The position numbers were made by a program, and so were the translations under genes. A stretch of 64,000 nucleotides of DNA. It comes from Chryseosolibacter histidinae. Its GTDB lineage: Bacteria > Bacteroidota > Bacteroidia > Cytophagales > Cyclobacteriaceae. Shown one piece after another: positions 759 to 3,897 of the stretch; position 1 is the stretch's first letter, and each line of letters begins with the position of its first letter. The stretch covers positions 62,001 through 126,000 of the forward strand of contig NZ_JAHESF010000002.1 in assembly GCF_018598225.1 (NCBI RefSeq), read 5' to 3'. Below the pieces are notes generated by a model that was given only the letters and a program-made list of their open reading frames with translations, searched no databases and had not been told where the DNA came from.

Positions 759-3179
759 ATGGCCAAGGTCAAACACAACAACTTCATGGATACTGTCGAT
801 GAAGTTATTTCTGACGCCAAGAAAATGGGCGTCGTTCATCTTTACACGGAGGACGAGGAGCTGACCGGCAGAAGAGTAAAGATCAAAGGAAAGGATCTCT
901 TTCATTTTGGAACCACCGGCTACCTGGGCCTTGAACAGGACATTCGCCTGAAAACCGCGGCCGTTGAAGCCATCTGGAAATACGGGACACAGTTCCCACT
1001 TTCAAAAACCTACATCTCACATCCCTTGTATAAATCACTCGAGGAGAAGCTCGAGCAAATGTATAGCAATCCGGTGATCATTACAAAGAACAGCACGTTG
1101 GGCCACCTCGGCGTGATCCCCTGCATCGTACGTGATGAAGACGGCGTTATTCTCGATCACCAGGTACACTGGAGCGTACAAAGCGCCGCACAGATCCTCA
1201 AGACCCGCTCCGTTCCCGTGGAAATGATCCGCCACAACAACCTGGCTATGCTCGAAGACAAAATAAAAGAGCTCGCCACACGCTGCTCCAGGATCTGGTA
1301 TATGGCCGATGGTGTTTACTCGATGTACGGCGACTGCGCACCCATACCGCAGCTTCTCGAGCTTTGCAAAAAATATCCGCAGCTGCACCTCTATTTCGAC
1401 GACGTTCATGGCATGAGCTGGGCCGGAAAAAATGGTACCGGCTACGTGATGGAGCAGCTGGGCACACTGCCCGAGAACGTGATCCTCTTTGGTACCCTGA
1501 GCAAAACCTTCGGTGCCAGCGGTGCCGTAATGGTTACCGCCAATGAAAAAATACACAAACAGGTAAAGAACTTCGGCGGCCCCCTGACCTTCTCTGCCCA
1601 GCTGGAACCTGCGTCTGCTGCCGCAGCGCTTGCCTCCGCCAACATTCACCTTTCTCCGGAGATCTACCAGCTCCAGGCCGAGCTGCATGATCGCACACGT
1701 TATTTCAATTCACTGCTTGCCAACACCGACCTTCCGCTGGTGGAACAAAATACCTGCCCAGTATTCTATATAGGCACCGGCGCTCCTGCTACCGGGTATC
1801 ATTTCGTGAACCGCCTCATGGAAGAAGGTTTTTACGTGAACCTCGGCCTCTACCCTGCCGTGCCCGTGAAGAATACCGGTGTTCGCATCACCATTTCACG
1901 TCACAACGAGAAAGAAGAAATGAAAGCCCTCGTTGACGCCATGGTGTATCACTATCCCAAGGCGTTGGAAGAAACCCACACCACTAAAAATAAAGTACGC
2001 GCCGCTTTCAAGATGCCGTACATCAAAGAAGAGGAGAAAACCACTGTTGCGGCAGCATCGCTCTCCGTTCAGCACGAAAGCACCATTCAGAACATCGACA
2101 AGAACGAATGGAACAGCCTGCTCGGCAAACAGAGCGCCTTCGACTGGGAAGGATTGAAATTCCTGGAAAAAGTTTTCACCCACGCAGAGCGCCCCGAACA
2201 TAATTTTGCCTTTCATTACTACATCATCCGTGATGAGAAAGCTCGTCCCGTACTGGCTACGTTCCTGACAACATCCCTCTGGAAAGACGATATCCTCGCG
2301 CCCGCTTCCGTATCGATGCAGCTGGAAGAAAAACGGAAGAACGATCCCTACTACCTCACTTCAAAAGTGATCTCCATGGGCTCGCTGTTCACAGAAGGAC
2401 AGCACTACTATATCGACAAGCAAAATCCCAAGTGGAAAGAAGCCTTCCAGACTTTGCTCAATGCCCTTGAAGGCCTTGAAGAGAACAAGGATGCGGCCAT
2501 GACCGTGCTTCGCGATTTCGAAGAAGACGCCGCCATCAACGAATTGTTGCACAGCATGGGATTCATCAAGATCAGCATGCCTGAATCCTGCGTCGTTACG
2601 GATCTGTCATGGAACGATGCTGAAGGTTATCTTGCCACGCTTTCGCCGAGATCGCGCAAGCACTTCAAAAAAGATATTCAGTCGTACGAAAAATACTTCG
2701 ATGTTGAATACCGTTCCACTGCATCGGAAGAAGAGCTCGATTTCTACTATCAGCTTTTCGAAAATGTAAGAGCGAAGAACTTCGGCCTGAACACGTTCAG
2801 TTTCCCCAGGACACTGTTCACCGAAATGTCACAGAACCCGAACTGGGAATTCATTGTGCTTTACCTGAAGAAAGAATTTGCCACCAACCAGGAACAGAGA
2901 ACGCCGGTAGCTGTGATGTTCTGTTACAAGAACATGGAGCACACCTACGTTCCTTCATTTATCGGCATGGATTACCGGTACGCCGAGTTTCAGATCTACC
3001 GCCAGATGTTGTATCAAACCATCATGAGGGCAAAAGCGCTCGATTTCAAAAAGATCGACTTCGGTTTCTCTGCATCATTCGAGAAGAAGAAAGTAGGTGC
3101 CGCGATCGTACCGAAAGTGGCATACATCCAGGCGAAAGATAATTTCTCCATGGAGCTGATGGGTACGATGCAGAAGTAG
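759..3179 (+). CDS. Alpha-oxoamine synthase (PLP) fused to GNAT-type acyltransferase
   Basis: This 806-residue cytoplasmic protein has two enzymatic halves. Residues about 20-415 form a fold-type I PLP enzyme of the AONS/KBL/serine palmitoyltransferase group. It has FGTTGYLGL near the N terminus, DDVHG (Asp214/Asp215, His217) for PLP binding, and the Schiff-base lysine in TLSKTFG (Lys249). Residues about 430-800 resemble a FemAB/BioF2-like GNAT acyltransferase (for example SPRSRKHFKKDIQSYEKYF, then KKIDFGFSASFEKKK near the end). Known relatives condense an acyl thioester with an amino acid to give a ketoamine. A second acyltransferase on the same chain would suit two-step sphingoid or sulfonolipid (capnine) synthesis, with condensation then N-acylation; that is inference. 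Family members of the first half alone are about 400 residues. The next gene is convergent, and a 7-bp repeat array starts at the TAG stop. Confidence 0.85.
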   Translation: MAKVKHNNFMDTVDEVISDAKKMGVVHLYTEDEELTGRRVKIKGKDLFHFGTTGYLGLEQDIRLKTAAVEAIWKYGTQFPLSKTYISHPLYKSLEEKLEQMYSNPVIITKNSTLGHLGVIPCIVRDEDGVILDHQVHWSVQSAAQILKTRSVPVEMIRHNNLAMLEDKIKELATRCSRIWYMADGVYSMYGDCAPIPQLLELCKKYPQLHLYFDDVHGMSWAGKNGTGYVMEQLGTLPENVILFGTLSKTFGASGAVMVTANEKIHKQVKNFGGPLTFSAQLEPASAAAALASANIHLSPEIYQLQAELHDRTRYFNSLLANTDLPLVEQNTCPVFYIGTGAPATGYHFVNRLMEEGFYVNLGLYPAVPVKNTGVRITISRHNEKEEMKALVDAMVYHYPKALEETHTTKNKVRAAFKMPYIKEEEKTTVAAASLSVQHESTIQNIDKNEWNSLLGKQSAFDWEGLKFLEKVFTHAERPEHNFAFHYYIIRDEKARPVLATFLTTSLWKDDILAPASVSMQLEEKRKNDPYYLTSKVISMGSLFTEGQHYYIDKQNPKWKEAFQTLLNALEGLEENKDAAMTVLRDFEEDAAINELLHSMGFIKISMPESCVVTDLSWNDAEGYLATLSPRSRKHFKKDIQSYEKYFDVEYRSTASEEELDFYYQLFENVRAKNFGLNTFSFPRTLFTEMSQNPNWEFIVLYLKKEFATNQEQRTPVAVMFCYKNMEHTYVPSFIGMDYRYAEFQIYRQMLYQTIMRAKALDFKKIDFGFSASFEKKKVGAAIVPKVAYIQAKDNFSMELMGTMQK

Positions 3180-3273: not shown

Positions 3274-3897
3274 TTATTGTTTTTCGATGAAACGCAGCTC
3301 AGATGCAAGGTTCTTCCTGGCCTGCGTTTCGTACTTTTCGAAGAAGTAGTCGGTTTTAAAGATCCGGGGCATGGTCAGAAAGTGTTGCAGCACTTTTTTA
3401 CGGCCGGGCCAGTACACAAGTCCGGGGTAGATGCCGTATTCTTTCCTGATCTGCTTAAAATACGTTTCATAGACTTCGTACGGTGCTCCCAGGATGCTGA
3501 GATCGGCATCCGTAAAAAGATTTACCGCGGGATCATCGCTTACTTGATGACTCTTTGTGGCGAGTATCATGGTTCTGCATTGCTGCACGTCCACTGCGGG
3601 AACAGCCATCGATGTCAGCTTCTTGTCGGCATGGTCTGCGCTTTTCTCTTCGTTGTTCTGTTTGAGAACATTGTAAACAACATCGTGATAGGCGATCGAA
3701 AAGACAACTGTATCCCAATTGCTGAATTGCTCCCTGACAGGAAGAAGCTCCTTCGCAAGATTGTCAAGGTGTACAAGATTGTGATAGTGACGGTCCGCTG
3801 CCGTATACTTCTTCCCGATCTCCTCCCATAAGGAAGACACTAACAACTCATCAGCAGAATAATGGTGGCAAGCTTCGAAGAACAGTGGCTTGATCAT
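3274..3897 (-). CDS. HD-superfamily predicted metal-dependent phosphohydrolase
   Basis: This is a 207-residue cytoplasmic protein. The metal-binding pattern of the COG4339-like HD family is visible: RHYHNLVHL near residue 37-45 and AYHDVVYN near 69-76. These supply the His and His-Asp ligands of a divalent metal site, and an acidic E-K-S-A-D-HADKK helix follows. Homologues are predicted phosphohydrolases with unknown substrate. It sits between two copies of the 50-bp palindrome, with no obvious functional link to the uxuA gene downstream on the same strand. Confidence 0.8.
   Translation of the reverse strand: MIKPLFFEACHHYSADELLVSSLWEEIGKKYTAADRHYHNLVHLDNLAKELLPVREQFSNWDTVVFSIAYHDVVYNVLKQNNEEKSADHADKKLTSMAVPAVDVQQCRTMILATKSHQVSDDPAVNLFTDADLSILGAPYEVYETYFKQIRKEYGIYPGLVYWPGRKKVLQHFLTMPRIFKTDYFFEKYETQARKNLASELRFIEKQ

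Follow-up and report, generated by a model that had tools for sequence, protein, structure and literature searches.

A fused alpha-oxoamine synthase and Fem-like transferase of Bacteroidota as a candidate signal synthase linked to a sensor-regulator

What is the product of a protein that joins an alpha-oxoamine synthase (AOS) to an acyltransferase-type domain? The question is raised by a gene of Chryseosolibacter histidinae at positions 759-3179 (+ strand) of the window, i.e. the 64,000-nucleotide stretch of DNA analyzed here, which forms a single ORF of 806 amino acids with an ATG start. Pfam places Aminotran_1_2 (PF00155) at residues 49-393 (5.7e-27) and Acetyltransf_6 (PF13480) at residues 631-773 (2e-9), both above gathering. 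Full-length fusions occur in at least 92 Bacteroidota sequences; whole-length relatives sharing 37-67% identity are present within the window's own family and order, others in named Flavobacteriia and Cytophagia genomes, with at least 575 candidate stretches. Because many genomes carry such full-length homologues, an assembly join is ruled out. The fusion is a real two-part enzyme that is widespread among Bacteroidota, and the presence of both domain types on one chain, as proposed by the sequence-only reading, was borne out by the ORF, the Pfam matches and the homologues. Condensation followed by N-acylation (or by another modification of the product), as suggested at the outset, is likewise the natural chemical reading of this domain pair. 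In one genome (G044), a second copy is split into overlapping ORFs of 538 and 277 amino acids (L111:15285-17716), perhaps by a frameshift, and one copy of G115 contains two internal stops. Downstream of the fusion, a 207-amino-acid protein (3274-3897, - strand) has homologues near other fusion loci (L016:17821-18456), and a Pfam search assigned it to no family above cut-off.

The AOS half covers about residues 1-400 (759-1958, + strand). Its membership of the AOS superfamily is indicated by PF00155, by matches to AOS structures in the PDB and by the residues H137 (1167-1169), D184, D214 (1398-1400), H217, K249 (the PLP lysine, 1503-1505) and R376 (1884-1886), which are invariant in 92 of 92 aligned fusion sequences. 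We take these to fulfil the usual roles in the family, namely Schiff-base lysine, PLP aspartate, stacking histidine and carboxylate arginine, and since they never vary, the PLP half should be active. The best NCBIfam score is obtained with PRK07505 (NF005697; 266.6 bits, below the cut-off of 342), and the scores fall well short of the cut-offs for serine palmitoyltransferase (SPT; NF047600, 155 of 640 bits), KBL (144 of 460 bits) and BioF (166 of 426 bits). The alpha-hydroxyketone synthase model (CqsA/LqsA; NF005526) gives 79.6 bits against a cut-off of 428, a comparison by model score, as the tree contains no CqsA/LqsA sequence. In a maximum-likelihood tree, the fusion AOS halves, PRK07505 and Alb29 split from SPT, CapA/SulA, KBL and BioF at 100/100; BioF and a Paraburkholderia row form long branches that leave this split unaffected. 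PRK07505 is the nearest clade, and stand-alone relatives (L113, L114) fall on the same side. The proposal that the enzyme is of the type making 3-ketosphinganine (SPT) or 3-ketocapnine (CapA/SulA) is therefore not supported, the AOS half lying outside both families. Grouping with KBL or the biotin-pathway synthase, named beforehand as a refuting outcome, was not seen either: the AOS half forms a clade of its own, and an identity as KBL or BioF is rejected by both tree and model scores. An AOS domain of a different branch was also noticed within a 1203-amino-acid protein with an adenylation-enzyme-like start (L115:5931-9542).

The C-terminal half (residues 428-806; 2040-3176, + strand) had been described as GNAT-like, which holds for its N-acyltransferase-type fold; it is larger than first noted and not a plain GNAT, since residues ~428-806 comprise two GNAT folds. 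As a fold search with the whole-protein model returned the AOS half only, the C half was modelled separately from 37 homologues (pLDDT 93), giving a tandem GNAT. Its best fold matches are FemX (6snr, Z 22.6), Sbb17/Sba18 (Z 21.7-21.9) and FemA (Z 21.5), with Sbb17 (9wqw, Z 21.9) superposed over 276/288 amino acids at 3.2 Å, and the tandem GNAT fold of FemX/FemA as a whole spanning Z 20.6-22.6; MprF and N-myristoyltransferase follow at Z about 17-18, and Foldseek ranks the matches in a similar order. Profile comparison with hhalign relates the C half to FemAB-like proteins (E 3e-6, prob 88, 202 columns) and aligns the invariant K776 (3084-3086, + strand), part of a Fem-like signature E-K776-x-K-x-G780, with the lysine of the Fem K-x-G-x-G region. 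The Pfam FemAB model (PF02388) gave no match to the C half, which is recognized by PF13480 only, and a profile search against PDB sequences yielded nothing useful. By its model, the C half is a tandem GNAT of the FemX/Sbb17 type, the fold of aminoacyl-tRNA-dependent aminoacyltransferases. Aminoacyl-tRNA as its donor is a guess from this fold, because many FemAB/PF13480 proteins have untested donors. A bCerS-like identity was rejected by profile comparison, since hhalign found no relation to the bCerS-type (YghO) family (prob 0.4, E 0.15).

Gliding Bacteroidota make sulfonolipids, and the fusion had initially been read as a candidate sulfonolipid or sphingolipid enzyme. The genome itself speaks to this reading, as it contains five AOS genes including the fusion: its own SPT (C29, 737 bits, above the cut-off of 640), KBL (C60, 705 bits), a CapA/SulA homologue (C21, 4.7e-172 to 28eh, a solved cysteate-C-fatty acyltransferase) and a BioF-like gene (C26, best model bioF, 358 bits, below cut-off). 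The SPT gene belongs to an operon of three overlapping genes (G000:C29:9989-13295, L158), in which it is directly followed by a GNAT gene whose product is 38% identical to E. coli YghO, then by a gene of the NAD-dependent epimerase family (CerR-type). In E. coli, YghO sits in an AasR/CerR/ACP/Spt-like cluster, and from the linkage to SPT we infer that the YghO family is bCerS. The published bacterial ceramide pathway comprises SPT, bCerS and CerR, with Spt paired with an N-acyltransferase (PMC11087976, PMC11324152). With the complete SPT-bCerS-CerR set and CapA/SulA in the genome, ceramide condensation and N-acylation as well as capnine condensation are provided elsewhere. The sulfonolipid or sphingolipid function thus finds no support and was rejected as the best explanation: dedicated genes exist for both lipids, and neither half of the fusion belongs to those families. 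As a side observation, the SPT, bCerS and CerR genes form a complete overlapping operon in this genome, whereas in Bacteroidota they reportedly lie apart as a rule (PMC11334938); plasmids of Streptomyces and Rubrobacter were also seen to carry consecutive genes for an SPT-like protein, a bCerS-type GNAT and a dehydrogenase (L145:1269-4551, L146:1207-4574).

The gene neighbourhood points in another direction. Divergent from the fusion lies a gene for a DUF7793 protein of 128 amino acids (STAS/SpoIIAA-like; 177-563, - strand; PF25056, 4.6e-48; the SpoIIAA-like match is below cut-off). Just left of the window is the gene of a cytosolic hybrid histidine kinase of 575 amino acids (G000:C45:60233-61960, L013:8233-9960, - strand) with a PAS-HisKA-HATPase-REC architecture and a weak HAMP-like start. 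Among 88 fusion loci, DUF7793 is directly upstream and divergent in 85 (downstream in one), and a regulator of this cluster is present in 82, of which 74 are AraC-type and eight kinase-type. These loci are the best-scoring matches and mostly represent one flavobacterial element family, a bias owing to which the counts are not independent. The regulatory output differs between lineages: the window's genome has a hybrid histidine kinase, Flavobacteriia an AraC HTH. The window kinase is matched over residues 10-190 (7.3e-37) by a profile that represents only residues 1-200 of the AraC-type regulators, which implies a 185-amino-acid input module common to both regulator types whose outputs have been swapped. 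Neither type contains a recognized membrane or periplasmic sensor domain. In one locus (L018), a single strand carries the fusion, a pair of DUF7793 genes and the kinase gene as an operon with overlapping or touching ends, and other kinases accompany the fusion at some loci (L014, L023-L025). DUF7793 and the sensor are the only recurrent partners of the fusion across lineages in the 88 loci, and the synthase gene adjoins a sensor-regulator gene as in quorum-sensing pairs.

The association was also found in 59 related genomes, a sample that is less biased than the 88 loci and still phylogenetically linked: DUF7793 is present in 11 of 12 genomes with the fusion and in five of 47 without it (Fisher p 1.7e-7), and the input module in 8/12 versus 1/47 (p 1.9e-6). 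At the applied threshold, the input module was missing from four fusion genomes, and G026 has the module without the fusion. The co-occurrence extends to unlinked genes, as DUF7793 and the input kinase lie together but apart from the fusion in G014 and G015. In one genome (G052), DUF7793 occurs in 18 copies, most of which are distant from the fusion and adjoin varied genes (e.g. L131-L134).

In Flavobacteriia, the fusion module adjoins rteC (PF09357) in conjugative elements, where it is placed between cargo and the rteC/tra genes. rteC is the next same-strand gene after the fusion in 63 of the 88 loci, and it is followed by an HTH gene and, at a greater distance, by genes of conjugation, among them those for a TraG P-loop ATPase and a TrbC-like pilin. 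The cargo on the other side (L022-L101, e.g. L041, L055, L071) encodes SusC, SusD, a peptidase (S9, M16 or other), MauE and a small DUF6520 protein. The window module stands alone, without this cargo or rteC. Searches of the literature, covering open-licence papers only and hence weak evidence of absence, found no description of the AOS-Fem fusion, of DUF7793 or of the fusion module together with RteC.

The promoters at these loci suggest which gene the AraC-type regulators would control. A 17-bp direct repeat with a period of exactly 21 bp is present in the DUF7793-fusion promoter of 34 of 74 AraC-type loci, compared with 0.5 in shuffles; neighbouring periods are found in 0-5 loci, and the 21-bp repeat in one of ten non-AraC-type loci. 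The derived box, TTGTC-N5-GGGATTAT, occurs twice at 21 bp. Its matrix matches the fusion promoter in 65 of the 74 AraC-type loci, these being the promoters on which it was trained; the blind repeat test is independent of that training. In many loci, the MauE operon is also preceded by the box, at a distance of 39-60 bp. Judged from their sequence, the tandem repeats look like predicted operators of the AraC-type regulator, which would act on the synthase gene. In the window, the intergenic promoter region of the divergent DUF7793 and fusion genes (564-758, 195 bp) shows no AraC-type tandem operator, as expected with a kinase output in place of an AraC regulator. A scan of this promoter found no sigma-70-type site, a result that says little in Bacteroidota.

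Based on the computed linkage, co-occurrence, phylogeny, fold, shared input module and operators, we infer a chemistry and a signalling circuit in which the fusion is a signal synthase that supplies the product within a regulatory module of three genes; we consider the chances of this explanation to be about even. A small signal molecule is a more likely product than a membrane lipid, because sulfonolipid and ceramide genes exist separately in the genome and the fusion travels with sensor-regulator genes. Its family and residues suggest that the PLP half would form an alpha-aminoketone by condensing an amino acid and an acyl thioester. The Fem/Sbb17-like half, going by fold and profile, would then acylate the new amine, the transferred group being most likely an aminoacyl residue supplied by aminoacyl-tRNA. 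Cyclisation of the resulting N-aminoacyl-aminoketone could yield a pyrazinone, just as DPO forms from N-alanyl-aminoacetone; both this linear precursor and DPO activate VqmA (PMC12930378). Gene linkage suggests that the product may be sensed intracellularly by the neighbouring HAMP-like/PAS input module, which would drive the hybrid histidine kinase in the window's genome or the AraC-type DNA-binding output in Flavobacteriia. At the computed sites, the AraC-type regulator would bind the promoter of the synthase gene itself, giving an autoinducer-style loop, and DUF7793 would tune the circuit. In conjugative elements, the position of the synthase directly before rteC may make transfer or the expression of cargo genes dependent on the signal. 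The specific aminoacyl/pyrazinone form of the signal is rather improbable in our estimation. The same low expectation applies to the full proposal, i.e. a single-protein synthase of a pyrazinone (or N-aminoacyl-aminoketone) autoinducer that combines an AOS with an aminoacyl-tRNA-dependent Fem-like transferase, works with a cytosolic PAS receptor of interchangeable outputs and with DUF7793, and owes part of its spread in Bacteroidota to conjugative elements, whose transfer it would control via RteC.

Other explanations account for parts of these data. The fusion might be a regulated enzyme of a secondary metabolite or pigment pathway making an N-acylated aminoketone that is no signal, with a regulator that senses another cue and switches the pathway on. 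We see this as possible, if distinctly less probable than a signal synthase: AOS relatives of the PRK07505 kind occur in natural-product-like plasmid clusters, and AraC and kinase regulators are common for pathways. However, no other biosynthetic gene is conserved with the fusion, whose recurrent partners are limited to DUF7793 and the sensor, and the same sensor module persists with different outputs. Two further points weigh against the signal reading: ordinary biosynthetic pathways also have regulators beside their genes, and the PAS domain could sense redox state or another ligand. An extra aminolipid synthase of the sulfonolipid or sphingolipid type, performing condensation and N-acylation beside the canonical enzymes, would fit the AOS and N-acyltransferase folds on one chain and recall the pairing in bacterial ceramide synthesis; with the genome's own SPT-bCerS-CerR operon and CapA, with both halves falling outside the corresponding families and with no lipid gene conserved near the fusion, we find it unlikely. 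Slightly less probable still is that the module is fitness cargo of conjugative elements, making a diffusible antimicrobial or a self-protection compound co-regulated with SusCD, peptidase, MauE and DUF6520. Its place between that cargo and the rteC/tra genes of Flavobacteriia and the operator copy preceding the MauE-DUF6520 operon agree with such a role, but the module also occurs by itself where genomes have neither that cargo nor rteC, the window being one example.

Among known systems, VqmA is a cytosolic PAS-HTH regulator, and the DPO/VqmA pair of Vibrio and the AI-3 pyrazinones resemble the fusion module in proposed chemistry and sensor layout. In the DPO route, Tdh supplies aminoacetone and released adenylates provide the aminoacyl group, whereas by analogy the AOS and the Fem-like half would perform both steps in one protein. 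CqsA/CqsS and LqsA/LqsS of alpha-hydroxyketone quorum sensing share an AOS-family PLP signal enzyme beside a sensor kinase; compared with them, the fusion has an extra transferase half and its sensors have soluble HAMP-like/PAS input. By sequence and tree, the closest AOS relatives are Alb29 (the albogrisin AOS) and PRK07505 proteins, which, unlike the fusion, carry no Fem-like half. FemX/FemA and Sbb17/Sba18, which are aminoacyl-tRNA-dependent transferases, have the same tandem GNAT fold as the C half at 12-14% identity, PF02388 remaining unmatched. SPT with bCerS, and CapA/SulA, follow a similar logic of condensation and N-acylation but use separate genes and families. SxtA of the saxitoxin pathway also combines an AOS and a GNAT-type domain in one protein; it differs in its domain order, its carrier protein and its loading-type GNAT. 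More generally, pyrazinone signals arose by several routes (PMC10979472).

To conclude, AOS-type signal synthases and signalling through PAS regulators are already known kinds; what is new is the joining of AOS and Fem-like halves in one chain, an input module that has exchanged its outputs, the presence of DUF7793 and the position next to rteC. To our knowledge, Bacteroidota have no well-characterized small-molecule quorum-sensing synthase/receptor pair of their own. The fusion module is common, conserved and partly mobile, with a predicted operator, and our results caution against annotating the fusion as SPT, BioF or a sulfonolipid enzyme. If true, the proposed function would represent a new enzyme logic, in which carbon-carbon bond formation and N-aminoacylation take place on one chain.
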